NCBI RefSeq assembly: GCF_001886815.1
Contig: NZ_CP018099.1
Location: 2,602,501-2,666,500, forward strand
Source of the DNA: Caldithrix abyssi DSM 13497
GTDB taxonomy: Bacteria; Calditrichota; Calditrichia; Calditrichales; Calditrichaceae
DNA: 64,000 bases
Direction of reading: 5' to 3'
The notes beneath the pieces are model-generated. The model saw nothing but the letters and a program-made list of their open reading frames with translations. It ran no database searches and had not been told where the DNA came from. Shown here piece by piece: positions 1-62,829 of the stretch (its first letter is position 1; each line of letters opens with the position of its first letter). The position numbers and the translations under genes are program-made.

Positions 1-219
1 CAGCGTCCAGTCAATTTCGTTGCGGCGCGCAAAACGAACGGTATTTAAAAGGGTAATAAAAGCGATGGTCGCCAGACTGGTGGCGATGGCCTCGCTGTGC
101 GGTAAGCGAAAAACGACGTTCAGAGCTGGCACTAAAATAATGCCTCCGCCCAGGCCTAATACCGAACTGATGCCCCCCACGAGCATGCCAACGATCAGGA
201 CAGTAATTAAAAGCGTCAA
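1..219 (-). CDS. TauE/SafE family sulfite exporter-like permease (N-terminal part, cut by window edge)
   Basis: Translating the minus strand from a TTG codon at 219 gives 73 codons open to the window edge. They begin with a hydrophobic helix and a Gly-rich stretch 'GGISSVLGLGGGIILVPAL', followed by 'ATSLATIAF', the N-terminal signature of the TauE/SafE (DUF81) permeases, which move sulfite or other organosulfur anions across the inner membrane. The TTG start is chosen because an in-frame TGA lies just upstream and AGGAATTGAG provides a ribosome binding site. It follows the sensor kinase stop by 22 bases, so it is probably the last known gene of that operon. The substrate cannot be told from the sequence. 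Confidence 0.8.
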   Translation of the reverse strand, partial: MTLLITVLIVGMLVGGISSVLGLGGGIILVPALNVVFRLPHSEAIATSLATIAFITLLNTVRFARRNEIDWTL

Positions 220-36968: not shown

Positions 36969-38882
36969 ATGAAAAGACACATCATCATCGGCACGGCCGG
37001 ACACATCGATCACGGCAAAACAGCCTTAATCAAAGCCTTGACCGATATCGATACCGATGTTTTAAAAGAAGAAAAGGAGCGCGGTATCACCATCGAGCTG
37101 GGCTTTGCTTACTGGAAAGACAACATTACCATCATCGACGTTCCCGGTCATGAGCGTTTTGTAAAAACCATGGTGGCCGGCGTGAGCACGGTTGATCTTT
37201 TTCTGCTGGTCATCGCCGCCGATGACGGCATCATGCCCCAGACCAGAGAGCATTTAGACATCCTTAAATTTTTTGGCGTTAAAAACGGGCTGGTGGCGCT
37301 GAATAAAATTGATCTGGTAGATGATGAATGGCGCGAATTAATATTGCTGGAAATAGAAGAATTTTTGCGCGCCAACGGCTACGACAACACGCCTATCATT
37401 CCGGTTTCCGCCGTCACCGGACAGGGCGTGGATGAATTAAGAAACATACTCACTCAAAAAATAGAACAATGCGCCGAACGCGCCAGCACGCGGCCCTTTC
37501 GCCTGAACGTTGACCGCAGCTTCAGCGTGCATGGTTCGGGCACGGTGGTTACCGGTACGGTTTTATCCGACGCCATCAGTGTTGACGACAATGTGGTTAT
37601 CCTTCCGGAAGGCAGGCTCAGTAAAATACGCGGCATTCAGGTTCATCAAAAAGACGTAACCAGCGCGCTGGTCGGACAACGGGCGGCCATCAATTTGAGC
37701 AATGTTTCCAGAGAAGAAGTGGAGCGCGGCAAAACGTTAACGCGTCCGAATACACTGGAGCCGGTTCGGGAATTTCTGGCCGTTCTTCACACCTCGTCGC
37801 AAATTCCCATGAAAATCAAAAAACATCAGGAAGTGCGCGTCTATCTGGGTACGGCCGAAATACTGGGCCGTATTGCCTGGTTCGAAGAGAACCCCAGCCT
37901 GGAGGCGGAACAGACCTACCATGTGCGCATCCGTCTGGAAGAAGCCGGTGTTTGCGCGCCCGGCGATGCGGTGCTGATTCGCACCACTTCTCCATTTTTC
38001 ACCATTGCCGGCGGACGCGTTCTTTTCCTCAATCCTCCGCCCATGGGCAGAATGCGCCACCGCTGGCAGGAAATATTTAAAACCTTACGTAACGGTCAGC
38101 TTAAAGAGCGGATTAAAATCTTTTTTGAATATCAGGGATTTAGCGCCGTGAATTTGTCCAATCTTGCCACACAATTTTTTGAAAAAAAGGAAACTCTTGA
38201 AAGCGCGCTGACGGCCTTAATAAAAGAGAATTTTTTGCTTTCCATTGAACAGCAGAACGAAAAGCATTTTGTGGCCATTCCAGCTCTGGACGAAGCGCAG
38301 GATCGCCTGCTGTCGGCCATTCATTCCCGTTTAACGAATAGCAGTAAAGCGCTAAACGGTTTCAATAAAAGCGAGCTTAAATCCATGTTAAAACCGCCCT
38401 GCGCCAATGATCTGTTTTTCGATCGTTTGCTGCAGCGTATGGTCAACCGCAAGGCGCTGGTAGCCATCGACGATTTGTATCTCACGCCGGAGCTGGCCAA
38501 TATGGAAGCCAGGCAGAAGCAGGCCGCAAAAGCCCTGGAGGTCATTTGTGATGCCGGCTTTCAGGCATTGACCTTCCAGCAAATTGCAGAGGCGCTGAGC
38601 CTAGCGCCAGACGCCCTAAAACCCTTGCTTTCCAATCTGGTCAAACAGGGTAAAATTCACTCGCTGGCCGGCAGCTACTATCTGCACGATGAATTCTTGC
38701 AAAAAATTTTGGCTTATTTAAAAAAGTCCTTTGCCGAAAAAAGAGAACTGGATATTGCCAGTTTTAAAAATTTCACCGGATTGACTCGCAAGGTGCTCAT
38801 TCCGCTGCTGGAATATCTGGATCAAAAACAGTTTACCATAAGGCAGGGAGATGTACGCATTAAGGGGCCCATGCTCAATTGA
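36969..38882 (+). CDS. selB: Selenocysteine-specific translation elongation factor SelB
   Basis: A 637-residue GTPase that brings Sec-tRNA to UGA codons marked by a SECIS hairpin. The EF-Tu-like G domain shows 'GHIDHGKTALIKAL' (G1), 'ERGITIELGFAYW' (G2), 'DVPGHERFV' (G3) and 'ALNKIDLVD' (G4). The 'ELGFA' and 'DVPGHE' forms are SelB-typical rather than EF-Tu. Domains 2-3 follow, and from ~390 to the end are winged-helix repeats that bind the SECIS RNA. Length is normal. It is the only Sec-machinery gene here; selA, selC and selD must be elsewhere. Two UGA-containing genes downstream (39975-40703 and 47553-48725, minus strand) are likely clients. Confidence 0.95.
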   Translation: MKRHIIIGTAGHIDHGKTALIKALTDIDTDVLKEEKERGITIELGFAYWKDNITIIDVPGHERFVKTMVAGVSTVDLFLLVIAADDGIMPQTREHLDILKFFGVKNGLVALNKIDLVDDEWRELILLEIEEFLRANGYDNTPIIPVSAVTGQGVDELRNILTQKIEQCAERASTRPFRLNVDRSFSVHGSGTVVTGTVLSDAISVDDNVVILPEGRLSKIRGIQVHQKDVTSALVGQRAAINLSNVSREEVERGKTLTRPNTLEPVREFLAVLHTSSQIPMKIKKHQEVRVYLGTAEILGRIAWFEENPSLEAEQTYHVRIRLEEAGVCAPGDAVLIRTTSPFFTIAGGRVLFLNPPPMGRMRHRWQEIFKTLRNGQLKERIKIFFEYQGFSAVNLSNLATQFFEKKETLESALTALIKENFLLSIEQQNEKHFVAIPALDEAQDRLLSAIHSRLTNSSKALNGFNKSELKSMLKPPCANDLFFDRLLQRMVNRKALVAIDDLYLTPELANMEARQKQAAKALEVICDAGFQALTFQQIAEALSLAPDALKPLLSNLVKQGKIHSLAGSYYLHDEFLQKILAYLKKSFAEKRELDIASFKNFTGLTRKVLIPLLEYLDQKQFTIRQGDVRIKGPMLN

Positions 38883-39974: not shown

Positions 39975-40703
39975 CTAATACTTTCCGATGTAATCTTTTC
40001 CCGTACCAATTAGTTTGTCGCCTGGTTTCCAGCCGGCAGGCGCCGCTTTACCAGGATTTTTAGCCACTTCTTGCATGGCCTTAATCTGCCTGATTAACTC
40101 ATCCACATTGCGGCCAACCGGGCCGGTAAGCACTTCCACCGCCATGATAATTCCATCCGGATTGATGATAAACCGCCCGCGCTGATTCAAACCGGACTTT
40201 TCCTGCCACACGCCATAAGCTCTGGAAACAGCGCCGCTGGGATCACCGCAAATCGGATATTCAACATTTTTGACGGTTGGGGAAGTTTTTTTCCACATCC
40301 AGTGCGTAAAATGAGTGTCTGTACTGATGGCAATAACTTCTACATTTAATTTTTTTAATTCATCGTACTTAGCTGCAACTGCAGCCAATTCGGTAGGTCA
40401 GACAAAGGTGAAAGCAGCGGGGAAAAAGCACAAAATGCGCCATTTACCCTGATAGTCCGAAAGTTTAACGGTTTTAATTTCATTCCCGACAACGCCCGTT
40501 AATTCAAAATCAATAGCGCGCTGCCCAGGTAACGGGATGGGATTGACCTTTAACGCGCTCTCCTTTACCACGTCCTTTTTTACGGTTACAGTGGCTTTTT
40601 CATCTGGCGACTGCCCACACGGGCCTAAAACCTGCGCCTTGCTTTGAAAGGGAATCATAAGAATGCCCATCAGTAGAAAGGCGACAAACAACACCTTACT
40701 CAT
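39975..40703 (-). CDS. Exported selenocysteine-containing peroxiredoxin (AhpC/Prx1-like), UGA-interrupted
   Basis: One 243-codon frame interrupted only by TGA at 40398-40400 (codon 102). The flanking residues read 'FFPAAFTFV-U-PTELAAVAAKY', so the UGA replaces the peroxidatic Cys of the AhpC/Prx1 signature 'DFTFVCPTEL'. N-terminal signal peptide ~1-23 ('MSKVLFVAFLLMGILM...SKAQ') makes it periplasmic. A hairpin at 40369-40388 fits a bacterial SECIS, and selB is nearby. The usual resolving Cys of 'VCPAxWxPG' is Ala in 'KAAPAGWKPG', so it is a one-Sec type; Cys in 'YPICGDPSG' is unusual. GGAGG precedes the ATG. It would detoxify peroxides. Annotators would split it into two ORFs. Confidence 0.92.
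40369..40388 (-). promoter_or_regulatory. Bacterial SECIS-like hairpin of the peroxiredoxin
   Basis: On the mRNA, TTGGCTGC and GCAGCTAA pair (8 base pairs including one G-U) around the loop AGTT. The loop starts 18 bases after the UGA and has G at its second position, matching the bacterial SECIS rules (loop 16-37 bases from UGA, G among the first two loop bases). Confidence 0.75.
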
Positions 40704-41010: not shown

Positions 41011-42264
41011 CTATTTTTGGGAATGTCTGGCGCGTAATTCTTTGGCTTTTTCTTTGATTTCCGTTAAATCGCGCACCATTTCACTCCAGCCGTACCACAA
41101 TGAGTAGTCCGGATTGTTATGGAATGCGCCCTGGAATAAACGCATACGATGTTTAAGGTGCATTTCGAACAGAGTCTGTTCGATTGTGGTTGGCGCGTCA
41201 TGGAAGGTTAACAGATCCGGGAAATTGCTGGCATAGCCTTCAGGTTTTTCGAGGATTCCGTCTTTGTACAAATCGGCTACAATGCGGATGGCTTCGGCCA
41301 GCAGTTTATCGCCTTCGCGAATCAGGTTGTCGCCTTTTTCCAGCTCGGCTTTGGCAAAGTTTTCGGAATGGCACTGGGAGCAAACTTTGATCATCTTATT
41401 CCGTTCTTTATCAAAGGCTTCTTTGCTCAAACGGGCAACATCCGCTTTGGCCACCACATCCAGTCTGGCGGTTGGCTTACCTTCCGGGCTTAATACGCCC
41501 AGCGCCTGCAGAATGGTTACGCGGTCTTTCCACCACTCTTCATCTTCGCCAGGGTAAGGCCCAAGCCCATCGGTACGAACCGCTAAAAAGCCCCAGGCCG
41601 TGCGCACTTCATGATTGCCTTCGGCCATGTGACAGGTTTGACAGGTCGGCGCAGAAGCAGATTCATCAATTTGTCCGGTTTGTTTTAATAAGGCACGAAC
41701 GCCATGTTTGGATGAGGAATACATTTCCCATTGCGGATGATCGAAGCCCATGTGGCAGGTCTGGCAAGCCTGAGGCTGCTGGGCTTCTTTTTTAGAAAAT
41801 GTGTGACGCGTATGACAGGCATCGCACGAGGCCACTCCAAAGCCGGCGCCCTCTTTTTTCAACTGTCTGATCTCTTCTTCCGTTTTAATACCCAGTTTAT
41901 GACAGCCGCCGCAACCTTTCATTCCTTCCGTAAGGGTCATCGGTTGATAGTGGATGGAAGGCATAGCCTTCATCGCCGCCCAGGCCAGGGCATGTTTGCC
42001 CTTTTTAAATTGCGTTACCTGATCTTCGTGGCAGTTGGCGCAGGTTTCGGGAGTGGGAATATCCACATTGGCCACATCGCTGGCCGAGCTGTGTCCGTCA
42101 CCGTGACAGGTGGCGCAACCGACCTCGTTTTTCGAGTGTTTACTGATTTCCCAGTCGGTTACAATACCAGGCGTAATATTCTGGTGACAGGTTACACACG
42201 TCTGCTCGGCAAATGCCAGTGTAAAGCCGAATAACAGCAGAAAAATTGAGTAGGTAATTCTCAT
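41011..42264 (-). CDS. Periplasmic octaheme c-type cytochrome, hydroxylamine oxidoreductase-like
   Basis: A 417-residue exported protein (signal peptide ~1-19, 'FTLAFA') with exactly eight CxxCH haem motifs: CVTCH, CATCH, CANCH, CGGCH, CDACH, CQTCH, CQTCH and CSQCH. The spacing and the C-terminal helical region without haem sites fit the HAO-like octaheme family, including the reductive epsilon-HAO forms that reduce nitrite or hydroxylamine to ammonium. I cannot see a clear cross-linking Tyr, which would favour reduction over oxidation. It is last in the operon with PepSY membrane and 4-TM proteins that could pass quinol electrons to it. It needs CcmF-type maturation. Confidence 0.85.
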   Translation of the reverse strand: MRITYSIFLLLFGFTLAFAEQTCVTCHQNITPGIVTDWEISKHSKNEVGCATCHGDGHSSASDVANVDIPTPETCANCHEDQVTQFKKGKHALAWAAMKAMPSIHYQPMTLTEGMKGCGGCHKLGIKTEEEIRQLKKEGAGFGVASCDACHTRHTFSKKEAQQPQACQTCHMGFDHPQWEMYSSSKHGVRALLKQTGQIDESASAPTCQTCHMAEGNHEVRTAWGFLAVRTDGLGPYPGEDEEWWKDRVTILQALGVLSPEGKPTARLDVVAKADVARLSKEAFDKERNKMIKVCSQCHSENFAKAELEKGDNLIREGDKLLAEAIRIVADLYKDGILEKPEGYASNFPDLLTFHDAPTTIEQTLFEMHLKHRMRLFQGAFHNNPDYSLWYGWSEMVRDLTEIKEKAKELRARHSQK

Positions 42265-42320
42265 AACACCTCCAATTTTGGTTTAACAATAACTCGTTTT
42301 ATCAAAAAAATTTTGGTTTT

Positions 42321-42677
42321 TCAATCCCCCTTTCCTGTTTCTGATTTATTCTTAAAATAGGCCTGAATCTTGTCATTTTGCCACCAGAAAATCACAAATA
42401 CAAAAAACAGAATAACCAGTCCCATGATGATTAATAAGCGAATATAAGGAAGATCCATTGCAAGTCGAAAACGAATAAACATGGCAGTAACACGCAGCCA
42501 CTCTCCAATCGCCAGCAAAAGCAATACCTGCCACAGTCCAGGCACCCATGCCCGACGAATGAATAACGTTCCTAACAGCAAAACAACCGCCAATGCCGGG
42601 TAAAGTCCCTGAAATCGCATTACATGGGCAGCAAATAATAAGTCAGCAAAAATCATCGGCAAAAATCGCAAAAACAT
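42321..42677 (-). CDS. Four-helix membrane protein next to the octaheme cytochrome
   Basis: A 118-residue protein from the ATG at 42677, where GGAGG lies within the end of the preceding gene; the longer frame from 42800 overlaps that gene heavily and is rejected. Four hydrophobic helices cover most of it ('FLPMIFADLLFAAHV', 'LYPALAVVLLLGTLFI', 'LWQVLLLLAIGEWLRV', 'LLIIMGLVILFFVFVIFWW'). No family recognised. The gap to the PepSY gene is 4 bases. It may be a membrane anchor or electron-transfer partner of the cytochrome (inference). Confidence 0.7.
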   Translation of the reverse strand: MFLRFLPMIFADLLFAAHVMRFQGLYPALAVVLLLGTLFIRRAWVPGLWQVLLLLAIGEWLRVTAMFIRFRLAMDLPYIRLLIIMGLVILFFVFVIFWWQNDKIQAYFKNKSETGKGD

Positions 42678-42681
42678 TACC

Positions 42682-44295
42682 TTACACCTCCACCATTTTC
42701 TTCTGTCGATTAAAATTTTTTGATAATAAGTTGTTGGGCCGGGCAACCAACAGCGTTCTTTTTTTTCTGAACTTTCTAAAGGCCCAGTCGTACAGCCCAC
42801 TAAAGGAAATTAAGAGGAACAGGATAGAACCCAGCGGGATAATCAGAATGTACAAACTACCTACCACGGATTTAAAAATTCTGCCATTGTGTAATTCGAA
42901 CATAAAGTTCCACAAACTTAAAGAATTGATGTCAATCATGGACTCCGGCACGCGCCAAATATTTACGACTTTTCCCTCCATGTTACATATTCCCTGCTCA
43001 TGGGCTGTAATCCATTCCGAGCCGTCATTTAGCTGGAAGTAGCCGGTGACCATTATGTCGGCAGGTCGAACGGTGGATACATTGTTTGGAATCTGGCCGG
43101 TGATTAGATCAACCGCCTGATCGGTTTGCGGATTGTAATCAAAAATACCGTTAAAAGAGGCGATGCGATAATGGCCATTGGGTAAACATTCAAAGTAGGT
43201 TGGCCCCATTACAAAGATGGGTACGTTCAAATTAATCTTTTTGAATTCCTGGCGCAGGTCGCCTGGCCCTGCCCACAATCCCTCGCTGGTGGCGATAATA
43301 AGCCGATCGCGAAAGGGATCATAAAGCGCATTCTGAATTTTACGTTCCCAGGGATTCTGGCTCAATTTACCGGGGTAATAAGTGGCGGGCACATCTTTCT
43401 CTGCAATGGCCGCCAGAAAAGGCGGTCGCATAAAAAGCCCGGTACTACCCAACAAAATGAAGAACACCACAACCAGCGCGCCTATTTTGATGTGCCACTT
43501 ATTCCAGCTTCGCAGGCGTGCGATCGTCCGGGTTTTAAACGTTGAATTGGCCCGTTTTCGATTGCGCCAGGGAGAGAACCAGACGTAAAAGCCGGTTACA
43601 CTGGCAAAGATAATCACCAAACCGATAAAATCCATTAACAGCTTACCGGCAAGCCCCCACGCCTTACCGTCATGGATATCAAAAAACAGTTGAACCATGG
43701 TCACGCTTTTTTCTGTTTCTTCTCGCAAGGGGGTTGCTATGGAAAATTGTAGCGCGCTTTTTGTTAAATCCGCTCTAAAAACATTGGATTCGCCAAATAC
43801 CAGCAGGGTGTCGTCTATTTTCAGGATTTTCTTCAATTTTTCCGGTTTTCCTGGTAATTCAATTTTTTGCCAGTTTAGACGGCTGAGCGACGCCATGAAT
43901 AAACCGCCATCCGTGGCGGCGATTAACAGTGAATCATTTCCATGTGTAAGAAAGATCATGTGGTTGGTCTTTTTATAATAATCGGCCTGCGGAAAACCCT
44001 GCCCCACGTAATGCACTTTCCGCGCATCATCAACCTGCCATACGCCTTTTTTCCCATAAATAAACATGTCCGTATCATTAACGTGAACCGCGCCGATAAT
44101 ACTGCTTCGGTTCCAGTTTTTGATGTGATAATGGGAAGGAACAAGCCACGAAGGAACGTTAAAGCCGGCAAACACCTCCGGATGGTTTAAAATGATCCCG
44201 GAGATACTCATCCAGATCAAAAACGGAATCAAAATTAAACCAAACACTTTGTGAATCCATCGTGACTTGATATATATTAAATTCTTAAATTTCAT
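42682..44295 (-). CDS. PepSY-associated transmembrane protein
   Basis: A 537-residue protein from the ATG at 44295, which overlaps the hemerythrin stop (ATGA); an upstream in-frame TTG is rejected. The first helix 'VFGLILIPFLIWMSISGIIL' follows 'SRWIHK', the PepSY-TM signature, with further helices near residues 220, 265 and 500. The two long loops look like periplasmic beta-propeller-type segments ('DSLLIAATDGGLFMASL', 'DRLIIATSEGLWAGPG'). PepSY-TM proteins often move electrons or act in metal-haem systems. Context suggests a quinol-side partner of the octaheme cytochrome, which is inference. Confidence 0.78.
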   Translation of the reverse strand: MKFKNLIYIKSRWIHKVFGLILIPFLIWMSISGIILNHPEVFAGFNVPSWLVPSHYHIKNWNRSSIIGAVHVNDTDMFIYGKKGVWQVDDARKVHYVGQGFPQADYYKKTNHMIFLTHGNDSLLIAATDGGLFMASLSRLNWQKIELPGKPEKLKKILKIDDTLLVFGESNVFRADLTKSALQFSIATPLREETEKSVTMVQLFFDIHDGKAWGLAGKLLMDFIGLVIIFASVTGFYVWFSPWRNRKRANSTFKTRTIARLRSWNKWHIKIGALVVVFFILLGSTGLFMRPPFLAAIAEKDVPATYYPGKLSQNPWERKIQNALYDPFRDRLIIATSEGLWAGPGDLRQEFKKINLNVPIFVMGPTYFECLPNGHYRIASFNGIFDYNPQTDQAVDLITGQIPNNVSTVRPADIMVTGYFQLNDGSEWITAHEQGICNMEGKVVNIWRVPESMIDINSLSLWNFMFELHNGRIFKSVVGSLYILIIPLGSILFLLISFSGLYDWAFRKFRKKRTLLVARPNNLLSKNFNRQKKMVEV

Positions 44296-44789
44296 TGCTC
44301 CGATCCATTTTTTCTTTTCCAAAATTCATTTGGCCAGCTTAAATCAATCGGTTTATGAACCTCGTGTAATTTTCCGCCTAATTGTTTCGCTTCAACCCTG
44401 GTAAGCATCTTTTCAAACGCCGGAAATAATTCTCTTTCTTCAAAACGAATATGCGTCTTTAATTTCTCGGAAAATTGCTGGATGAGGTTCCGTATTTCCT
44501 GCTCGGATTTCATCTTGTTCAATTTTTTCATCATCTCAGCAAATATTTGATGATCGCCCTGCATCTGTTGTAAATAATCCTTTAAGTCCCTGAGATATTC
44601 AGGAACCATCAAATATTTTTCTTCCAGGTCAATATGAATCAGAAGCGCGGTTTGCCAGACGTGCAAAAGATATCGTTTTATCTCTTCCACGGACGCGTCA
44701 AATTGCATGCCCTGCTCCAGCCGAAAGACCAGAACAAGGCCGTTATGATGCTCCCACGATAAGGTTTCAAGGGCGTAACTGCGCTTCAT
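44292..44789 (-). CDS. Hemerythrin-like domain protein
   Basis: A 165-residue four-helix protein with the di-iron hemerythrin (HHE) pattern: 'LSWEHHNGLVL', 'IHIDLEEKYL', 'QGDHQIFAEM' and 'THIRFEERELFPAFE' supply the His and Glu ligands. Such proteins bind oxygen or NO or repair NO-damaged Fe-S clusters. GGAG lies before the ATG. It is between DUF1858/DUF2249 and PepSY genes in the Rrf2-led operon, so an NO-related role is favoured. Confidence 0.9.
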   Translation of the reverse strand: MKRSYALETLSWEHHNGLVLVFRLEQGMQFDASVEEIKRYLLHVWQTALLIHIDLEEKYLMVPEYLRDLKDYLQQMQGDHQIFAEMMKKLNKMKSEQEIRNLIQQFSEKLKTHIRFEERELFPAFEKMLTRVEAKQLGGKLHEVHKPIDLSWPNEFWKRKNGSEQ

Positions 44790-44803
44790 TCTTTCTCCGA
44801 TAC

Positions 44804-45337
44804 CTATTTTCCGATATAGGTTAAATGTGAATCAGGTTTCCCTTCTTCTACCTGATGATGAACACGATAACCGGCCTCAACCATCTTTTCGATTAATGGA
44901 ATGGGTTTAAAATTAGTCTTTAACAAAATATACTGTCCGGCCGGCAGCGTATTCATGGTTTGCATTACATCGCTTAAGGGATGCACGCCACGGTTGAGCA
45001 TTTCCACGCCATCAATAACTTTGGCTGGCTGACCGTTAATCCATTCCGGCGCATCGTTTACTGCAGGCGCTTCGGCCATGGCGCTCTCTTCTTCATTCGG
45101 CGCGATAGGTTCCTGCCCCACTTCGGTGCGTAAAATGTTTACCAGATGATAAACATCCACTCCACCAACCTGGGCCACTTTTTCTAACGTGGCAATTTTT
45201 AAAACGGTTTTGCGTAAAATCGGATTGCTCAGATTTTTGTAGACCGGCGAAACCGTTTTTATGATATCTTCCAATTGAGGATAAGCTTCAAACACTTCCC
45301 CCAATTTAACATGACGATTTATATCCAAAACATTCAT
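44804..45337 (-). CDS. DUF1858-DUF2249 two-domain protein
   Basis: A 177-residue protein. Residues ~1-75 ('LGEVFEAYPQLEDIIKTVSP', 'LEKVAQVGGVDVYHLVNIL') match DUF1858, the ScdA/RIC N-terminal-like domain. Residues ~105-177 ('VIDGVEMLNRGVHPLSDVMQ', 'GYRVHHQVEEGKPDSHLTYI') match DUF2249. These domains keep company with hemerythrin and DUF438 proteins in nitrite/NO gene clusters of anaerobes. GGGAG precedes the ATG; 14-18 bases separate it from both neighbours. No catalytic residues are known. Confidence 0.85.
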   Translation of the reverse strand: MNVLDINRHVKLGEVFEAYPQLEDIIKTVSPVYKNLSNPILRKTVLKIATLEKVAQVGGVDVYHLVNILRTEVGQEPIAPNEEESAMAEAPAVNDAPEWINGQPAKVIDGVEMLNRGVHPLSDVMQTMNTLPAGQYILLKTNFKPIPLIEKMVEAGYRVHHQVEEGKPDSHLTYIGK

Positions 45338-45355
45338 AATGACTCCCTTTTAAAA

Positions 45356-46594
45356 TTATTCTTCATCGTACTGCAACAAACGACGTTCCCCCTCAAGGGC
45401 GCGTAAGTCGGTCAGGTCTTGCGTGACTTCCAGTGTTCCCAGATACGTTCCCTGATCATTCCTTATGGCATAATAAGAGATGTAGATGAAACGACCGCCA
45501 AAATTGATCCAGAAGCGCGCCACATCCTGTTTTCCTTCTTTAAAATCTTTAATTATCTGGTTGACAATATTTACGCTTTTGGGAGGATGGCAGTACTGCA
45601 CTTTGCGGCCCAGAATGGTGCGCGAGCGGTCGAAAATACGATCTTTTCCAGGACTGAAATAGCGTACGGTATCTTCCGCGTCAACAAATGTTAAATCTAC
45701 CGGAAGCGTTTTGAAGATGTTTATCAATTGTTCAAGCGTAAAGCTGCCGGTGGGTAAATGAATTTTATCGTCGCTGGCTTTGATCTTTTCTACATTCTCA
45801 ACCAGTCCGCCTTCCGGAACCCATTCAAATTCAGGGTAATAAAGACAAAAACCGATTTCCGGACTTTGCAAGTAGATATCGTACCAGTCCTGCTCGGTTA
45901 ACAAGTCCATTGCCGTGGGAAAGAGAATTTTTTCTTCCTTGTAAATCATCTCTTCCACGGATTCGATGGCTGGTTCAATGGCCAGCCGGGCAAAAGCGAT
46001 CATTTCCTTTTGAGAAATGTTTTCTGCCTCATTTAAGGCCTGGATAACCGATTTTAAATAGCTGCGCGTTTCATCATGTTTGGTCCACATTACGGTGGAA
46101 GGACCGTGCAAGTTGTTCTTTTCGAAGAAAGGAAAGAGCAAGTTTTCTTTACGACGATAGTGTTTATCCACATCCATCAATTCATTGAGTAAAAAACGAA
46201 TCTTCATTAATACATCCGCGCTCTCTTCTTCGGATACTTTTTCCAGCTCGGCGATCTTCTTTCTGATGTGCGCCGTTCGCTGCAATAACGCCTGGTTTTC
46301 CTGCAAAAAGGTGTGCAGCGGATGACCGGGAACGGCATCTGGCGTTTCGGTTAGGTCCAGATGCTTTTTGAGCACTTTGGTGTGCACGTCGCACAGCTTG
46401 GTGATGCTCTCCCGGGAGATACCCTCTTCCATTAACTGAATTTCCATTAAAAAAACATCGGAATAATCGGCTTCTTGCAATACACTTTCCAGTTGCCTTC
46501 TAACCTTCTCCTCATCTCTTCCTTCATGGAGTTGACGAATCAAGTTTTTCATAACCTCGATTCGTTCCTGTCTATTGTTGATTAATTCGCTCAT
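45356..46594 (-). CDS. DUF438 protein with hemerythrin-like and PAS domains
   Basis: A 412-residue protein: DUF438 N-terminal helices (~15-80, 'VFLMEIQLMEEGISRESITKLC'), a hemerythrin-like segment (~110-240; 'VDKHYRRKENLLFPFFE', 'WTKHDETRSYL', 'MIYKEEKILFPTA'), and a PAS domain at the C-terminus (~290-405; 'LTFVDAEDTVRYFSPGKDRIF', 'GRKVQYCHPP'). DUF438 proteins are thought to sense or handle O2/NO; a PAS haem or ligand site is possible. GGAG lies before the ATG. Second gene of the Rrf2 operon. Confidence 0.9.
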   Translation of the reverse strand: MSELINNRQERIEVMKNLIRQLHEGRDEEKVRRQLESVLQEADYSDVFLMEIQLMEEGISRESITKLCDVHTKVLKKHLDLTETPDAVPGHPLHTFLQENQALLQRTAHIRKKIAELEKVSEEESADVLMKIRFLLNELMDVDKHYRRKENLLFPFFEKNNLHGPSTVMWTKHDETRSYLKSVIQALNEAENISQKEMIAFARLAIEPAIESVEEMIYKEEKILFPTAMDLLTEQDWYDIYLQSPEIGFCLYYPEFEWVPEGGLVENVEKIKASDDKIHLPTGSFTLEQLINIFKTLPVDLTFVDAEDTVRYFSPGKDRIFDRSRTILGRKVQYCHPPKSVNIVNQIIKDFKEGKQDVARFWINFGGRFIYISYYAIRNDQGTYLGTLEVTQDLTDLRALEGERRLLQYDEE

Positions 46595-46644
46595 CTTTTT
46601 TCTCCAAATTTCTATTTATTCGTAGCATTTTTATTTAAAAATTT

Positions 46645-47058
46645 TTAAATCTTGTGCGTGGCAAATTTTTCCAGATCTGCTAGCGTGGTATTGTACAAAA
46701 ATTCTTTTAATTCACTCTGGATTTTAGACCAGAAATGATGCATGGGACAGGGATTATCATTCGAACAATTGGGAAATCCAAGAATGCAACGATCGTAGTC
46801 TTCCAGCCCTTCAACCACGCCGACCACTTCGTACAGGTAAATTTTCTCTAATTCCCGCCCCAGTTGATAGCCGCCGTGTTTACCCTGCAGCACCTGCACC
46901 AGTCCGGCCTGAGCCAGCTTACTCATCAGACGCCCCAGGTATTTATATGGAATGCCAAGCTCTTTGTGCAATACATTTACCGAAAAACGCTGATCCTTGT
47001 TTACCGCCAGATACGTCATTACCCTAATGGCATGTTCTGTTGTTTTTTGTAGCCTCAT
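46645..47058 (-). CDS. Rrf2 family Fe-S regulator (NsrR/IscR-like)
   Basis: A 137-residue winged-helix repressor: 'EHAIRVMTYLAVN', recognition region 'SVNVLHKELGIPYKYLGRLMSKL' and wing 'VQVLQGKHGGYQLGR'. Three cysteines in 'RCILGFPNCSNDNPCPMHHFW' (C-x6-C-x5-C) suit a [2Fe-2S] or [4Fe-4S] cluster as in NsrR and IscR. Being first in an operon of NO-linked proteins favours an NO or nitrite sensor over Fe-S homeostasis. A palindrome at its own start suggests autoregulation. Confidence 0.9.
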   Translation of the reverse strand: MRLQKTTEHAIRVMTYLAVNKDQRFSVNVLHKELGIPYKYLGRLMSKLAQAGLVQVLQGKHGGYQLGRELEKIYLYEVVGVVEGLEDYDRCILGFPNCSNDNPCPMHHFWSKIQSELKEFLYNTTLADLEKFATHKI

Positions 47059-47552: not shown

Positions 47553-48725
47553 TCATATTAGGCCAGCCCTCTGCCTGAATTTCTCCAGATTTCGCTTAAA
47601 GAGTTTATCCTTTGGATTTAATTCAATGGCTTTCTCTTCCGCTTTAATGGCTTCCTGGTGTTTGCCCTGCAGACTGAGGATTTCGGCCAGCGTATCCAGA
47701 ATATTGGCCTTATCCAGCGGATCGTCTGCCAGCTCCAGCGCTTTTTTCGCCAGCGCCGCCGCTTCATCCAGATTTATCTTATTTTCAAAGCACCACCAGG
47801 CAAAAGAATTCAATTGATCCGGATTCTCCTGCCAGCCGGGCGGCATGGCAGCCTTCTTTTTTTCGACGGCTTTTTTTGCGTCTTTTTCCACATAAAGGCA
47901 ATGCAAAAGCTCAACTTCTTTTTTACTACGTTCACGCAAAAGATCTGGCGTTCGATTGATCATTTGAGTCAGTTTTGTAAGATAGCTCAGCAATTCCCTA
48001 TCATCAGGCGATTTTGCTAAGAGGCGCGACATGTTAAACAAGATTTGCGCCCGGCTTTTTTCGTCCTTTAAACCCGCCATTAAATGATCGGCGGCAGCTT
48101 TAACCGAATCAAGCGGAAATTGATCGGAGCGGTATCCAGAATAAACAATCCGAAAAATCTGTCTATCCAGCTCCACATCTGGCTTTTGGGCAAAATTTTT
48201 AGCTTTTTTCAAATAATCATAAGCGGTTATCAGCTCGTTCCGGGCAAAATAATAATCGGCCAGAATTCTGGCCAGCTCGGCATCAGGTTTTCGGGCAAAT
48301 CGTTCTTCTTTAACTGAGATGGGATTGAGGTCGGAGAGAGCAAGGGCCATTTTCTGGGAAAAATATTGTTTTCCATATCCCATAAAAACAAACAGAGGTT
48401 CTTCACTGGCATTGACCAGATAGAATGTCGGATAGCCCCTGATATTGTATTTTTTCGCTAACTCAACGCCTTCGCCCTTTTCACAATCGACCTGCAGTAA
48501 AACCACATTGCTTAAAATTTTTCGGATTTCGCTGTCTTCTTTCGCTGCACGAGCGAATTGCTTACAGCTCGGTCACCAGTCCGTCATAAAATCGATTAAA
48601 AGCGGTCGGTTCAATTTTTTAGCCAGTTGCAACGCTTCGCTCAACGTTTGAGCATTCATGGGCTCAGGCTCGCGCGTGGCGCATGCTAAAAAGAATATCA
48701 AAAACAACCAGAGCGCTTTTTTCAT
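47553..48725 (-). CDS. Selenocysteine-containing thioredoxin-like lipoprotein with C-terminal TPR region, UGA-interrupted
   Basis: One 391-codon frame from the ATG at 48725 (GGAGG four bases upstream), interrupted only by TGA at 48573-48575 (codon 51). A lipoprotein signal (lipobox 'FLAC', Cys15) precedes a thioredoxin fold whose redox motif reads 'DFMTDW-U-PSCKQF', i.e. U51-Pro-Ser-C54 in place of CxxC. 'VDCEKGEGVELAKKYNIRGYPTFYLV' (~residues 82-107) has the cis-Pro. The C-terminal half is helical with TPR-like repeats ('ANILDTLAEILSLQGKHQEA'). A hairpin at 48541-48557 fits a SECIS. An envelope disulfide reductase or peroxidase partner is likely; automated calls would lose the first 73 residues, including the active site. 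Confidence 0.92.
48541..48557 (-). promoter_or_regulatory. Bacterial SECIS-like hairpin of the thioredoxin-like gene
   Basis: On the mRNA TTCGCT and AGCGAA pair (6 base pairs) around loop CGTGC. The loop begins 22 bases after the UGA and has G as its second base, as expected for a bacterial SECIS. Confidence 0.72.
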
Positions 48726-48950
48726 TTTTCCTCCATAAAATCGTAAACCAACTTCTATCCAATAAAAGTAAACGATGTTCTTTTTATTTTCCAGATTCTG
48801 AAATATTTTTCATTTTTATCAAGCCCATTAAAGTGCGGCGAATAATAATTCCCTTTTTCGGTTTTTACATTTCTTTTACAATATTCCAGAATAATTTATT
48901 TCTATTTTATGTTTTGAGTTATGCATTTAATTTAAAATTGGAGAAATTCT

Positions 48951-50056: not shown

Positions 50057-52216
50057 TTACTTGATCTTCAGCATTCTGGCATTGATGGCTACCACAATGG
50101 TGCTTAAGGACATCAGCACAGCGCCCATGGCCGGACTGAGGATAATTCCTGAAGAATATAGTACGCCTGCCGCCAGCGGAATGGCGAAGGCATTGTAACC
50201 GGTTGCCCAGGCCAGGTTCTGAATCATTTTTCTGTAAGTGGCCTTGGCCAGGCTGATAATAGCCACCACATCAAGGGGATTGCTGTTTACCAGAACCACG
50301 TCTGCTGTTTCAACGGCAACGTCCGTTCCGGCGCCGATGGCAATACCCACATCGGCAGTGGCCAGCGCCGGCGCATCATTTACGCCGTCGCCTGTCATGG
50401 CAACGATGAGTCCCTGTGCCTGCACTTCTTTAACTTTTAAGGCCTTTTGATCCGGCAGCACTTCGGCAAAATATTGATCCAGGCCCAATTCTTCACTGAC
50501 CCAACGCGCCACCTGTTTATTATCGCCGGTTAGCATCATGGTTTTGATACCCATTTTCTTTAAAGAACGGATGGCTTCAAAAGATTCCGGTCTAATTTCG
50601 TCGGCCAGGGCAATCGCTCCATGAAGCCTGTCATTAATCAAAACAAAAACGACTGTTTTGCCCTGCTCAAACAATTCCGAAACGGTATCATTATTAATCG
50701 TAATATTTTCTTGTTTAAGATAGCCAGGACTGACAACCATTACTTTTCGACCGTCAACCATGCCGTAGGCGCCTTTGCCCGGAATGGCTTTAAAATCCTG
50801 AACCGGTAATTTTTTAGCTGCCTTATTGCTGATTGCTTTGGCAATGGGATGTTCTGAATGGCTTTCCACGCTGCCGGCTAAATCAACCAATTCATCTATT
50901 TGAATACTTTCATCAAATACGACCACGTCGGTAACGCCAAACTCGCCTTTTGTTAAGGTGCCGGTTTTATCAAAAATGATAGCTTGCAGATTGCGCGCCC
51001 GTTCGAAGGCAGCGCGATTGCGAATCAATAATCCGCGAGACGCAGAGATAGCGGTCGAAACAGCCACCACCAGAGGCACGGCCAATCCCAGCGCATGGGG
51101 GCAGGTAATGACCATCACCGTAACCGTTCGCTCAAGCGCAAACGACAAATCCTGATGCATGATCACCATCCAGACAAAGAAGGTTAATCCGCCGGCAAAA
51201 ATGGCGATGAGCGTTAGCCAGAAGGCGGCTCGATTAGCCAGGTCCTGCGTTTTAGACTTACTTTCCTGTGCCTCTTTTACCAGGTCGATCACCTGCGACA
51301 GGAACGAATCTTTGCCGGTACGGTGCACTTCGATAACCAGAGAACCTTCTCCGTTGATCGAACCGCCAATAACCTTGTCCGCTTCACCTTTATAAACAGG
51401 CTTGGACTCTCCGGTCAACATCGATTCGTTCACCGAGCTTTCTCCGCTGATCACCACGCCGTCGGCGGGGATTTTTTCACCGGGTTTGACCAGCACACGA
51501 TCGCCCTTAATCAATTCATTCAAAGGCACGTCAATCACTTTATCTTCGCCGACCAGTTTGTGCGCTTCGGAGGGCATCAATTTGGCCAGTTCTTCCAGAG
51601 CTTTAGAAGCGCCCATCACCGATTTCATTTCAATCCAGTGGCCTAAAAGCATAATGTCAATTAAAGTAGCCAGCTCCCAGAAGAATATCTTTCCGGCCAA
51701 CCCAAAAACCACCATCGCGCTGTAAAAATAGGCAACGGTTATGGCTAATGAGATCAGCGTCATCATTCCCGGGATCTTCTTCCGTAATTCCTGCACCATG
51801 CCTTTTAAAAAGGGCCAGCCGCCATAAAAATAAATAGCCGAGGCCAGTACAAAACTCACCACTAAATCGCCCGTAAAGCGCAGCGAGAATCCCAAAAATT
51901 TCTGAATCATCGGTGACAGTAGTAGAACCGGAACGGTTAAGGCCAGACTGATCCAGAAGCGTTTTCGAAAATCCGCCACCATCATTTGGTGATGATCGTG
52001 ATGATCGTGTTTTTGCCCCCTGGCGGCGTGGTCGTGCTCGTGCCCTGCACTTTGGGTATGGCCAGCGTGATCACCTTCATCAGATTGGTGCACGTGGTGA
52101 TGTTGGTCGGTATGTTTTGATGCATGTTCAGAGTGTTCATGCTCACTGTGATGATGTCCATGTTCATCCGCATCATGCTTCATGCCGTTTTCGTCGTGAT
52201 GTTTTTTATTATTCAT
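50057..52216 (-). CDS. copB: CopB-type copper-exporting P-type ATPase
   Basis: A 719-residue P1B ATPase. The first ~75 residues are a His-rich cytoplasmic tail ('[20 protein letters not shown]') in place of a CxxC domain. The membrane metal motif is 'CPH' in '[11 protein letters not shown]', typical of the P1B-3 (CopB, Cu2+/Ag+) type. Phosphorylation site 'DKTGTLTKG', 'SEHPIAKAI', '[10 protein letters not shown]' and '[13 protein letters not shown]' are intact, so it is a working pump. It lies 33 bases after the SHOCT gene and may be cotranscribed with it. It exports copper or silver from the cytoplasm. Confidence 0.95.
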
Positions 52217-57996: not shown

Positions 57997-60900
57997 TTAA
58001 AACGTTTCATTTCCATTATTTTCTTCAGCTTCGTCTTTAGCAAATTGTGCGCTCATGCGTTTTAACTCCCGGCTTTTCCACAAAAAGTAGATGGCGGGGA
58101 TGACGATCAACGTTAAAACCGTTGACGAGACCAGGCCGCCGATCATGGGAGCGGCAATGCGCTTCATGGTCTGTGAACCGGTTCCTGTCCCCCACAATAT
58201 GGGCATCAGTCCGAGCATGGTAGTGGCTACGGTCATCAACTTGGGACGTACCCTGTCCACGGCGCCTTCAACAACAATTTGTTTCAGATGATCCAACTTA
58301 CGAATCATGCCTCTCTTTTTCCAGTCATTATAAACATTGTCCAGATAAACCAGCATCACCACGCCCGTTTCGGCCGAAAGACCAGCCAGAGCAATGAAGC
58401 CTACGCCAACCGCCACACTAAAGTTGTAACCCAGGATGTACATAAACCAGATGCCTCCGATCAGAGCAAAAGGCAAAGAGAACATCACAATCATGCTTTC
58501 GGTTACATTCTTAAAGTTGAAGTAGAGCAGCAAAAAGATGATGACCAGGGTAATGGGCACCACAATTTGCAGTCGCTTTTGAGCGCGCTGCATGTATTCG
58601 TACTGTCCGGACCAGACCAGGCTGTAACCTTCAGGAAAATCAACTTTGTCAAAGACGGCCTTTTTGGCGTTTTTCACATAGGTGCCCACATCAATATCTC
58701 GAATATCGACATACAACCAGGCGGTGCGGCGGGCATTTTCGCTTTTGATGACAGGCGGCCCTTTTTTAATCTCAATGTCTGCCAGATATTCAAGCGGAAC
58801 CTGGGCTCCTGTGGGCGTTGGCACCAGTACACGCTTCAGAGCGCTGATGTTGTCTCGCAATTCTCTGTTGTAGCGCACATTTACCGGATATCGCTCCAGT
58901 CCTTCAACGGTGTAAGTTACGTTCATTCCTCCAATGGCTGTGGTGATTACATCCTGCACATCTCCAACCGTTAATCCATATCGCGCGGCTTCCAATCGAT
59001 TAATTTTAAAATCCAGATAGTTGCCGCCTACTGTTTTATCCGGAAAAACGCTCAAAGTTCCCTTTACATCTTTCAAAACATTGGCAATCCGCTCAGCCAG
59101 GTCAGAAAGCGTTTGCAAATCCGGCCCCATAACCTTAACGCCGACGGGCGTTTTAATTCCCGTGGAGAGCATGTCAATCCTGGTTTTAATGGGCATGGTC
59201 CAGGCGTTGGTTAATCCCGGAAACTGAATGGCGGCATCCAGCTCTTTGATTAATTTTTCCATGGTCATGCCAGGGCGCCATTCTTCTTTGGGTTTAAGCA
59301 TAATGGTTGTTTCGATCATGGAAAGCGGCGCCGGATCGGTGGCTGTTTCGGCCCGGCCGATTTTACCAAACACATGGTGCACTTCCGGAAAACTCTTTAT
59401 GATCTTGTCGGTTTGCTGCAGCAGTTCCCTGGCCTTGGTGATGCTAATTCCCGGATCGGTGGTCGGCATGTACAGCAGATCGCCTTCATTCAACGGAGGC
59501 ATGAACTCAGAACCGAGACGTTGTAAGGGCAAGATGGTAATCAGGATAAGTACCACAGCTCCTCCGATGGTTAGCCAGCGAAAACGCAGCACAAAATCGA
59601 TAACCGGTCTGTAAAGTTTGATTAATATTCGACTGATGGGATTTTCTTTTTCAGAGCGAATTCTACCGCGCACGAAAAAGCCCATCAAAACCGGCGTAAT
59701 GGTGATGGCTATGATTGCCGAAGCCGCCATGGCATACGTTTTGGTGTAGGCCAGGGGTTTAAATAGCCGCCCTTCTTGCGCCTGCAGGGTAAAAACCGGC
59801 AGAAACGAAAGCGTTACAATGAGCAGAGAATAAAACAACGCCGGCCCTACCTCTTTGGATGCGGACATGATGATCTGCCAGTGCTCCTTTTTCCCCCTGT
59901 CTCGTTCCAGATGTTTATGTGCGTTTTCGATCATCACAATGGCCGCATCTACCATGGCGCCAATGGCAATAGCAATACCGCCCAGAGACATGATGTTGGC
60001 GTTAATGCCCTGAAAGTACATAATCAGAAAAGAGATTAAAATACCCATGGGCAGGGTGAATACGGCCACAAAAGCGCTACGAAAATGCAAAAGGAAGATG
60101 ATGGATACAAGGGCTACCACGAGTAACTCTTCTACCAGTTTTTCACGCAAATTGTCAATGGCTCTGATGATTAAGCCTGAACGATCATAGGCCGACTTGA
60201 TGGTCACGCCTTCGGGCAGCCCCTTTTCCAGTTCTTTTAACTTCTGTTTTACGCGTTCAATGGTTTTAAGCGCATTTTCGCCCCAGCGCATGACCACAAT
60301 TCCGCCGACGGTTTCGCCCTCGCCGTTCCATTCGGCAAGCCCGCGACGCAGCTCTGCCCCAATGCTGACATTGGCAATGTTTTTGATTAAAATGGGCGTT
60401 CCGTTCTGATCCACGCCCACCGGAATATTTTCCACATCTTCTCTGGATTTAATGTAGCCCAGCCCGCGTACCATAAACTCTGTTTCGCCCATTTCAACCA
60501 GGCGGCCGCCCACGTCGTTGTTACTGCGCTTGATGGCCATCTTTACCTTATTCAAAGGAATGTTGTAAGCCTTTAATTTGTTGGGGTCCACTTCTACCTG
60601 GTATTGTTTTACATAACCGCCAATACTGGCTACTTCTGCCACGCCGGGAACACTGGTCAATTCGTAACGCAGGTACCAGTCCTGCAGCGAACGCAGTTCC
60701 TGCAGATCGTATTTATCTCCGCCATCCAGCACATACTCGTAAACCCAACCCACGCCGGTGGCATCAGGCCCCAATTGCGGAGTCACCCCCGCAGGCAACC
60801 GACTGGAAACGTAATTCAAATATTCCAGTACCCGCGAACGCGCCCAGTAAAGATCGGTACCGTCTTCAAAAATAATGTACACAAAAGAGAGTCCGAAAAA

Positions 60901-61158
60901 CGAATACCCTCGAACAACCTTGGCATAAGGCACCGATAACATGGCGCTGGTCAGCGGATAGGTCACCTGATCTTCCACCACCTGTGGCGCCTGGCCGGGA
61001 TAATCGGTAAAGATAATAACCTGCACATCGCTTAAATCGGGGATGGCGTCCACCGGCGTATTGAATATGGCGTAAATTCCAGCAAAGGCAATAAACGCGG
61101 TAAATATGATTACCAGTAGGCGGTTATTGATCGATGCTTCTATAATTTTTTCTAACAC
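57997..61158 (-). CDS. cusA: CusA-type heavy-metal RND efflux pump
   Basis: A 1053-residue inner-membrane RND transporter. The proton-relay segment 'AIGAMVDAAIVMIENAHKHLE' (near residue 400) matches CusA (Cu+/Ag+) rather than the 'DFGxxVDGAVV' of CzcA. Twelve membrane helices and two large periplasmic loops are evident, with the start 'MLEKIIEASINNRLLV' and 'TPVDAIPDLSDVQVII'. Full length. With CusB upstream and an outer-membrane channel before it, it forms a tripartite pump that ejects Cu+/Ag+ from the periplasm. Confidence 0.96.
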   Translation of the reverse strand: MLEKIIEASINNRLLVIIFTAFIAFAGIYAIFNTPVDAIPDLSDVQVIIFTDYPGQAPQVVEDQVTYPLTSAMLSVPYAKVVRGYSFFGLSFVYIIFEDGTDLYWARSRVLEYLNYVSSRLPAGVTPQLGPDATGVGWVYEYVLDGGDKYDLQELRSLQDWYLRYELTSVPGVAEVASIGGYVKQYQVEVDPNKLKAYNIPLNKVKMAIKRSNNDVGGRLVEMGETEFMVRGLGYIKSREDVENIPVGVDQNGTPILIKNIANVSIGAELRRGLAEWNGEGETVGGIVVMRWGENALKTIERVKQKLKELEKGLPEGVTIKSAYDRSGLIIRAIDNLREKLVEELLVVALVSIIFLLHFRSAFVAVFTLPMGILISFLIMYFQGINANIMSLGGIAIAIGAMVDAAIVMIENAHKHLERDRGKKEHWQIIMSASKEVGPALFYSLLIVTLSFLPVFTLQAQEGRLFKPLAYTKTYAMAASAIIAITITPVLMGFFVRGRIRSEKENPISRILIKLYRPVIDFVLRFRWLTIGGAVVLILITILPLQRLGSEFMPPLNEGDLLYMPTTDPGISITKARELLQQTDKIIKSFPEVHHVFGKIGRAETATDPAPLSMIETTIMLKPKEEWRPGMTMEKLIKELDAAIQFPGLTNAWTMPIKTRIDMLSTGIKTPVGVKVMGPDLQTLSDLAERIANVLKDVKGTLSVFPDKTVGGNYLDFKINRLEAARYGLTVGDVQDVITTAIGGMNVTYTVEGLERYPVNVRYNRELRDNISALKRVLVPTPTGAQVPLEYLADIEIKKGPPVIKSENARRTAWLYVDIRDIDVGTYVKNAKKAVFDKVDFPEGYSLVWSGQYEYMQRAQKRLQIVVPITLVIIFLLLYFNFKNVTESMIVMFSLPFALIGGIWFMYILGYNFSVAVGVGFIALAGLSAETGVVMLVYLDNVYNDWKKRGMIRKLDHLKQIVVEGAVDRVRPKLMTVATTMLGLMPILWGTGTGSQTMKRIAAPMIGGLVSSTVLTLIVIPAIYFLWKSRELKRMSAQFAKDEAEENNGNETF

Positions 61159-61210
61159 GTGTATCTCCTCTGTTCTGTTTGATTATGAGTAAAAGAGAGT
61201 GTAAGAGTGT

Positions 61211-61228
61211 AATGGTTGAATGGTTGAT
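61211..61228 (+). repeat. Short TTGAATGG repeat, copy 4
   Basis: AATGGTTGAATGGTTGA in the cusB-cusA gap; a fragment of the repeat family at 4915-5003. Confidence 0.55.
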
Positions 61229-61272
61229 TTTGCATTTCGCTTCGTCCTCTTAACTCTTAATCCCTTAACTGT

Positions 61273-62829
61273 TTACTGTCCCCTTTTCTCTGCCAACATT
61301 TTCTGGATGGCTTCCTGCAGGCGACTTTCGCTGTCCAGCATGAACTGCGCTGAAGTAACCACCTGTTCGCCCTCCAAAAGACCGGAGATAATGCGCACTT
61401 CGCCCTGGTCATTTTCTTCACCAATTTTCACCTGTCGTGGCTCAAATCGTCCTTCTCCGCGTGCGATAAAGACCAGGTTACGTTTACCGGAGCGAATCAC
61501 CGCCTCGGTCGGCACAACCAGCGCATCCTTAATGGGATCGGCCTTGATGGAAACATTAGCGTACATGCCCGGTTTCAATTCAAAATCCGTGTTCTGGAAT
61601 TCGAGGCGAATTTTGACGTCGCGCGCCTTTTTATCCAGGTAAGGATAAATGTAAGTTATTTTTCCTTGAAACTTTTTTCCGGGCATATAGCTTAATTCCA
61701 CTTCGGCCTGTGCATCTGGCTTAACCCAGGGCAAATCATTATCGTAAATGCTGACCTGAATCCACACTCTGGAAAGATCGGCAATGCGGAAAAGGTCGTT
61801 TCCGGCTTTTATGTAAGTTCCTTCAACCACATTTTTGTGAATTACAAAACCGTCAAATGGCGAGTAGATGGTTGTGGTCTTTTTAACTTCCTGACTGTCT
61901 GTCAGACGCTGGATTTCCGTTTGCGGAATGTCCCAGTATTGAAGCCGTTTTAACGAACTTTTCAAGAGTTCTTCGGCGCTCTGGCGCACTTCGCTGATGT
62001 TGGAACCTTTAACCGCCTGCAAATTTTTTAAGGCCAGCAAATACTCTTCCTGGGTGGTTACCAGTTCGGGAGAATAAATTTCCAGTAATGGTTGCCCCTT
62101 GCGCACCAGTTTGCCGGTGTAATCGGCATACAATTTCTCTACCCAGCCCGAAATCTTGCTATTGATGGTAAACAGCCTACTTTCATCGTACTCGATATAG
62201 CCAACGGTGCGGATGGCATGGTAAAAATCTTTTTTAACCACAGGCGTAAAACGTACGCCCATATTTTGAACCGTAACCGGATCGATGGTGATCGTACCGC
62301 CGCTTCCCAGGCCGGACTCGCCTTCATAAACCGGAATCAAATCCATGCCCATTTTCGATTTGCCGGGACGATCGTAAATTTCTGTAGGATCCATGGGCGC
62401 CCGCCAGTACAAAATCTTGCCTGATTTTTGCGTTGTTTTTTTAGATTTTTCCGTTTTTAAAGGCACCAGATTCATTCCACACTTGGGACATTGGCCCGGT
62501 TCTTCCAGAATGACCTCTGGATGCATGCCGCACGTCCACAATTGCGCTTGTTCACCGTCGCCGGATTGATCATGAGCCCCGGCGTCATGATCTTCATTCA
62601 TATTCATCTGCTGCCCGGCGCTTTTTTTAACGGGCACCAGGTCCATTCCGCATTTGGGGCATTGGCCGGGTTCTTCGGTTATCACTTCCGGATGCATGGG
62701 ACAGGTGTACAATTGCACTTCTTCTTTTTGTTCCGTTTTATCTTTTTCACCGCTGCAACTGCTCACAGTAGCCCCGATTGAAAAAATTAGTAAAAGTCCA
62801 AATAACGTAATCAGAATGCGTGACTTCAT
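61273..62829 (-). CDS. cusB: CusB-type periplasmic adaptor with heavy-metal-binding domains
   Basis: A 518-residue lipoprotein (lipobox 'TVSSC') with three N-terminal YHMH/HMBD-type heavy-metal-binding modules: 'YTCPMHPEVITEEPGQCPKC', 'WTCGMHPEVILEEPGQCPKC' and a degenerate 'YWRAPMDPTEIYDRPGKSKM'. The adaptor body follows with barrel-sandwich and alpha-hairpin regions ('SGWVEKLYADYTGKLVRKGQ', 'NLVFIARGEGRFEPRQV'). It links CusA to the outer-membrane channel and passes Cu+/Ag+ to the pump. The third module lacks its Cys residues. It lies 12 bases after the channel gene. Confidence 0.94.
   Translation of the reverse strand: MKSRILITLFGLLLIFSIGATVSSCSGEKDKTEQKEEVQLYTCPMHPEVITEEPGQCPKCGMDLVPVKKSAGQQMNMNEDHDAGAHDQSGDGEQAQLWTCGMHPEVILEEPGQCPKCGMNLVPLKTEKSKKTTQKSGKILYWRAPMDPTEIYDRPGKSKMGMDLIPVYEGESGLGSGGTITIDPVTVQNMGVRFTPVVKKDFYHAIRTVGYIEYDESRLFTINSKISGWVEKLYADYTGKLVRKGQPLLEIYSPELVTTQEEYLLALKNLQAVKGSNISEVRQSAEELLKSSLKRLQYWDIPQTEIQRLTDSQEVKKTTTIYSPFDGFVIHKNVVEGTYIKAGNDLFRIADLSRVWIQVSIYDNDLPWVKPDAQAEVELSYMPGKKFQGKITYIYPYLDKKARDVKIRLEFQNTDFELKPGMYANVSIKADPIKDALVVPTEAVIRSGKRNLVFIARGEGRFEPRQVKIGEENDQGEVRIISGLLEGEQVVTSAQFMLDSESRLQEAIQKMLAEKRGQ

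Follow-up and report, generated by a model that had tools for sequence, protein, structure and literature searches.

The window, a 64,000-nucleotide stretch of the Caldithrix abyssi genome (a single contig of 4.98 Mb), contains a minus-strand gene predicted by computation to encode an exported, selenocysteine (Sec)-containing protein in which a thioredoxin (Trx) domain precedes a TPR-like tail. The features discussed below are as follows.

48730 to 48734, minus strand: Shine-Dalgarno sequence GGAGG, 4 nt upstream of the ATG (from the sequence)
47553 to 48725, minus strand: Sec-containing Trx-TPR gene, 390 aa, ATG at 48725, stop TGA at 47553-47555
48681 to 48725, minus strand: signal peptide MKKALWLFLIFFLA-C15, lipobox-like (from the sequence and the signal peptides of homologues; cleavage and lipidation inferred)
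48408 to 48650, minus strand: thioredoxin domain, residues 26-106, with Sec51, Cys54, and cis-Pro99 (Pfam, NCBIfam, alignment, AlphaFold2)
48573 to 48575, minus strand: in-frame UGA predicted to encode Sec51 (U-P-S-C); the same codon is TGA in 32 clade genes
48541 to 48557, minus strand: SECIS stem-loop UUCGCU-CGUGC-AGCGAA, starting 15 nt past the UGA, loop at 48551-48547
47568 to 48320, minus strand: TPR-like alpha superhelix, residues 136-386, with clade-invariant W311-C312 (Pfam, alignment, AlphaFold2, Foldseek)
36969 to 38882, plus strand: selB, selenocysteine-specific elongation factor (TIGR00475, 367 bits against a cut-off of 242)
39975 to 40703, minus strand: putative second selenoprotein, an exported peroxiredoxin (TFV-U102), with a SECIS-like hairpin at 40388-40369

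Translated through the TGA, the frame from 48725 to 47553 comprises 391 codons, that is, 390 residues and a terminal stop that is also TGA (47555-47553). The protein begins with MKKALWLFLIFFLAC and continues to LIDFMTDW-U-PSC. The sole TGA inside the frame falls at codon 51 (48575-48573; context LIDFMTDW-U-PSCKQFARA), exactly at the first Cys of the thioredoxin CxxC motif (DW-U-PSC). The ORF returned by standard six-frame calling runs from GTG 48506 to 47553 (317 aa), and its product would lack both active-site residues. Pfam matches to Thioredoxin_7 (5e-14) and Thioredoxin (2e-13) span the TGA (residues 26-109), and TPR_12 is matched near the C terminus (residues 318-369). An AlphaFold2 model based on an alignment of 31 homologues was a single ordered chain (pLDDT 94.6), with the Trx domain followed by a TPR-like superhelix of ~14 helices. 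The N-terminal domain matched DsbD-gamma and a Thermus thioredoxin in Foldseek, and the whole protein matched consensus TPR superhelices and YbbN. U/C51, C54, and cis-Pro99 are invariant; with the cis-Pro, the UxxC/CxxC site, and the Trx fold all present, the criteria for a thioredoxin-fold oxidoreductase are met. The initial annotation had proposed a 391-codon frame from 48725 with a single TGA at 48573-48575 on the first CxxC Cys, a thioredoxin fold with a TPR-like tail, and a standard start at GTG 48506 that misses the active site. All three claims held, as judged, respectively, by translation, by Pfam and AlphaFold2, and by the 317-aa ORF.

The TPR part carries an additional Cys, Cys312 (codon 47790-47792, minus strand), in an (A/W)WCFEN motif whose W311-C312 pair is clade-invariant. 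Cys312 (WWCFEN) is kept in all 31 aligned proteins, Sec and Cys members alike, and the motif is absent from the outgroup Trx-TPR proteins that we read, which have AWFLATH or AWRIFQS instead. A role as an extra redox or structural Cys is possible.

Homologues with TGA at the homologous codon numbered 31, two from Calditrichota and 29 from the phylum of the Krumholzibacteriota records, giving with the C. abyssi gene a main Sec clade of 32 genes. The two Calditrichota members are a full-length relative with 39% identity and a U-GGC site (G022) and a U-PSC copy from the genus of C. abyssi with frame errors further downstream (G001). The nearest congener copy (L015/L045) comes from a MAG, and its frame breaks downstream. 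Record L045 (JAGHBR010000276.1), titled Caldisericaceae bacterium, carries the same contig as G001, which was assigned to the genus of C. abyssi, and this title looks wrong. Of 80 genomes from the phylum of the Krumholzibacteriota records, 39 gave a match at E ≤ 1e-12, and 29 of these encode a Sec gene with TGA exactly at the CxxC position. Four close relatives (L043/L066, L077, L091, and L094) have Cys. tRNA-Sec was detected in 69 of the 80 genomes, and Sec machinery was also found in Cys-bearing genomes (G041, G050-G052), indicating that the Cys forms do not simply track loss of the machinery. One Sec member (L088:1042-2790, G086) has an open frame that extends ~190 codons further past the TPR region, possibly through a fusion or an assembly join. 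A profile search of the phylum of an Ignavibacteriae record returned 39 Trx-TPR matches of 350-420 aa, all with Cys and none with a stop, and a profile search of 395 genomes from the phylum of a Deltaproteobacteria record, run without a positive control, gave no match at E ≤ 1e-30.

A 17-nt hairpin, overlapping the codons for F-A-R-A, follows the UGA. It meets the published criterion for a bacterial SECIS, a stem-loop right after the UGA whose small apical loop includes a G (PMC1088965). Among 28 Sec genes read base by base, all 28 formed six of six pairs between +18..23 and +29..34, counted from the U of the UGA, with a five-base loop of CGUGC or CGUGA. Four further Sec genes had the same hairpin, one with the loop CGUGG, so that it is present in all 32 main-clade genes. 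It was kept in none of six Cys homologues, which formed two to four of the six pairs and had no such loop; the hairpin-encoded residues F-A-R-[AE] are also missing from Cys homologues. Among the compensatory changes were C-G to U-A, G-C to A-U, and C-G to U-A at three different stem pairs. When a seven-pair stem was scored over 27 sequences, 96.8% of cells were paired, compared with 36-55% in slid registers, and double-sided changes were seen at four of the seven pairs. Given the protein and the codon usage of each gene, an average of 12% of genes would be expected to show complete six-pair complementarity, and such complementarity occurred at 0.28% of other in-frame positions of the Sec genes. 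The loop Arg codon was CGT in 28/28 Sec genes; further downstream in the same genes, 34 of 471 Arg codons were CGT. The Sec genes are related and are not independent trials, so multiplied probabilities for the pairing and codon tests would overstate significance. Single minimum-free-energy folds gave a different optimum in L015, L073, L078, and L089, and we therefore relied on the comparative pairing test. Agreement of the hairpin across two phyla is hard to explain without a function of the RNA. We also scanned the window for TGA codons with an open frame of at least 45 codons before and at least 60 after; a SECIS-like hairpin accompanied only two of the 19 cases, the Trx-TPR gene and the exported peroxiredoxin. 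Rfam at its gathering threshold detected nothing in the window.

The genome encodes the machinery required for Sec incorporation: tRNA-Sec (73.6 bits against a cut-off of 47), selA (491 bits), and selB, which lies inside the window ~10 kb from the Trx-TPR gene. A UGA at a redox Cys position, Cys homologues, and tRNA-Sec, SelA, and SelB in the genome together satisfy the sequence-level criteria for a bacterial selenoprotein. In the Calditrichota relative G022, a draft estimated as 92% complete, selA is present and tRNA-Sec scored only 39 bits, below the cut-off. selB and both selenoprotein genes of the C. abyssi window fall within one 12-kb stretch, and selA and tRNA-Sec are far off in the genome (1.97 Mb and 3.17 Mb). 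The C. abyssi genome paper makes no mention of selenium.

The TGA could instead be a true stop arising from a pseudogene or sequencing error, in which case translation from GTG 48506 would yield the 317-aa protein alone, or no product would be made. Ordinary ORF calling does yield GTG 48506, and frames are broken in the copy from the congener MAG. Against this, the TGA occupies the same codon in 32 clade genes and in three genes of another lineage, coding conservation extends on both sides of it, the covarying hairpin is absent from Cys homologues, the genome has selA, selB, and tRNA-Sec, and a product starting at 48506 would be without both active-site residues. Pseudogene, sequencing error, and short GTG start were thus rejected on the conservation of the TGA and hairpin and on the Sec machinery, and the true-stop explanation is all but excluded. 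Computation strongly supports a selenoprotein on the basis of the frame, the UGA at the catalytic Cys, the SECIS, the Sec machinery, and the domains; the presence of selenium in the protein itself is inferred. The selenoprotein call of the initial annotation accordingly held, with TGA in 31 homologues and a conserved hairpin. Its proposed refutation, that no orthologue would have Cys or Sec at this position, met the opposite outcome: 34 other Sec genes (31 in the main clade and three in a separate lineage) and several Cys genes share the layout. Its view that the combination is unfamiliar among well-known selenoproteins held with one refinement: the Sec version is new, and the domain pairing is common with Cys.

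Export appears to be a general feature of the family, and lipoprotein character does not. A lipobox-like Cys follows the hydrophobic core in C. abyssi (FFLAC), G022 (TASC), and G046 (SSC), and the signal peptide of most Krumholzibacteriota members is of the ordinary type, with no Cys. The original description of the product as a lipoprotein was upheld for the export signal; lipidation is only suggested by the lipobox-like motif in these three members. For C. abyssi, lipidation is inferred; it is plausible, with weaker support than our other calls. Export by the Sec pathway is likewise an inference.

There is nothing new in the Trx-TPR architecture as such, Cys versions of which are widespread (Bacteroidota/Ignavibacteriota and others); the novelty is the Sec version. 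The Cys-type proteins (L016, L046, L132-L145) share the layout at ~350-420 aa, with signal peptides in those read, but have Cys in place of Sec, no SECIS hairpin, and no FAR[AE] motif. An inventory of 119 prokaryotic selenoprotein families published in May 2026 (PMC13188914) has no entry for a Trx-TPR family, and the terms TPR, tetratricopeptide, Krumholzibacteria, and Calditrichota do not occur in it. It lists UxxC thioredoxin and thiol:disulfide interchange selenoproteins (PF00085 and PF13098; Table 1), which likewise have a Trx fold, Sec for the first CxxC Cys, and a SECIS just past the UGA. Those families are described by a Trx-type domain alone and none as an exported Trx domain with a TPR superhelix, although descriptions rather than sequences were compared, and some Trx-TPR member may already be filed under these generic entries. 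The family is thus missing from the catalogues that we checked, and its kind, UxxC thioredoxin-fold selenoproteins, is already known. No NCBIfam 20.0 model reached its cut-off for the protein, including the selenoprotein families NF041199 and NF045694. NF041199 (Trx7/PDZ selenoprotein) resembles it in joining a Thioredoxin_7-type domain to an added domain, but has CxxU and PDZ where the Trx-TPR protein has UxxC and TPR (15.9 bits against a cut-off of 300). The best NCBIfam match was the DsbD gamma domain (residues 24-108, 53.4 bits against a cut-off of 330), which also gave close PDB matches (2fwe, 1vrs). Unlike DsbD, the Trx-TPR protein has no membrane or alpha domain, carries a TPR tail, and has Sec for Cys. 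Identity with DsbD was rejected because the score is below the cut-off and the protein has only a gamma-like domain and is not a three-domain membrane protein.

We consider it likely that the gene encodes a genuine selenoprotein that acts as an exported Trx-TPR thiol-disulfide reductase, although no protein-level or 75Se evidence is available. An envelope thiol-disulfide reductase is suggested by the active-site layout, the export signal, and Sec, and a docked partner by the TPR superhelix. In the proposed mechanism, the ribosome would decode the UGA at 48575-48573 as Sec through SelB, tRNA-Sec, and the 17-nt SECIS, and the product would be exported, in C. abyssi probably as a lipoprotein. Its thioredoxin domain, DsbD-gamma/PDI-like with U-P-S-C at the active site, would lead into the TPR superhelix. 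A substrate disulfide would be attacked by the selenolate and the mixed selenyl-sulfide then resolved by Cys54; a partner or client may dock on the TPR tail. The reductase direction, the resolving role of Cys54, and TPR docking are all inferred, and the electron donor is unknown.

Alternatively, the same selenoprotein could be mainly an exported redox-linked holdase (a chaperedoxin) like CnoX/YbbN, in which the TPR would hold unfolding clients and Sec/Cys would form protective mixed selenyl-sulfides. CnoX is a Trx-TPR fusion with holdase and redox-protective functions (PMC8129009), its domain order (N-terminal Trx, C-terminal TPR) is the same, and YbbN structures (3qou, 3qdn) were among the top Foldseek matches. 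However, the EcCnoX site is SXXC and the protein does not catalyze insulin reduction (PMC8129009), whereas both positions here are invariant redox residues, one of them Sec. Superposition on YbbN, which is cytoplasmic and has fewer helices and a shorter TPR, was poor overall (TM 0.23, rmsd 22 Å), and the exported Trx-TPR protein would be away from GroEL. A chaperedoxin role is therefore unlikely, and membership of CnoX/YbbN was rejected given UxxC and a signal peptide against SXXC and a cytoplasmic location.

Gene context did not serve as a guide to function and was rejected as such, the neighbors being neither redox genes nor shared between phyla. ORF clustering of ~20 neighborhoods found no conserved redox partner gene adjoining the homologues; neighbors shared within Krumholzibacteriota were limited to an amidohydrolase and a phosphodiesterase-like gene, with none in common with the C. 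abyssi window. With no redox partner gene nearby, the donor, client, and direction of the reductase that we propose rest on knowledge of the family. A further alternative is an exported metal handler in which the U-x-x-C would act not on disulfides but on copper or some other soft metal, by binding or reducing it. Nearby lie genes for a metal P-type ATPase (50057-52216) and for a CusA-like RND pump and its adaptor (57997-62829), with families assigned by eye. This alternative is very unlikely, as no such association is seen in Krumholzibacteriota neighborhoods, and the conserved cis-Pro99 and Trx fold favor thiol exchange.

A second Sec lineage was found in three genomes of a Planctomycetota-titled phylum (Planctomycetaceae record), with the active site VYIDFYTDW-U-GWC. 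These genes have the loop CGUGA at an identical offset from the UGA and a shorter stem, and tRNA-Sec exceeded the cut-off in two of the three genomes. In a 40-protein tree, the three UGWC proteins grouped with Cys families, away from the main Sec clade; constraining all Sec rows to one clade cost 87 log units (AU p 2e-48), and at least four Sec/Cys changes were needed. The tree has long branches and weak resolution near the Cys members, and they leave open whether Sec was gained or lost. We prefer a reading with two separate gains of Sec. A bolder reading, which we would neither back nor dismiss, is that the family is undescribed and that Sec became fixed on its exported Trx-TPR scaffold on two or more independent occasions, in the main clade (Calditrichota and Krumholzibacteriota) and in the UGWC lineage, with a CGUG loop at the same distance in both and the invariant Arg of FAR[AE] set by the SECIS RNA and not by enzyme function.

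Dozens of genomes spread over three bacterial phyla carry this hidden gene. Standard ORF calling strips the active site in every Sec genome and leaves headless TPR fragments, and so conceals a family that 29 of the 80 genomes sampled from one phylum possess. The known selenoproteins would gain a cell-envelope Sec enzyme joined to a docking module, and the under-studied Calditrichota and Krumholzibacteriota gain a testable selenium-dependent envelope redox activity. The family also offers natural Sec/Cys replacement pairs and a SECIS in which the constraint on sequence is unusually clear.

The exported peroxiredoxin of the window (39975-40703) has a signal peptide, a TFV-UGA-P site, and an 8-bp hairpin (z = -3.2 against shuffles), and ordinary ORF calling splits it into 40398-40703 and 39975-40388. 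It is a possible client of the Trx-TPR protein, on proximity only. Between the two genes, 41011-47058 (minus strand) encodes a multihaem cytochrome, a PepSY-type membrane protein, hemerythrin-like and DUF1858/DUF438-like proteins, and an Rrf2-family regulator. This run, with families named by eye from the sequence, resembles a nitrite/NO stress cluster.
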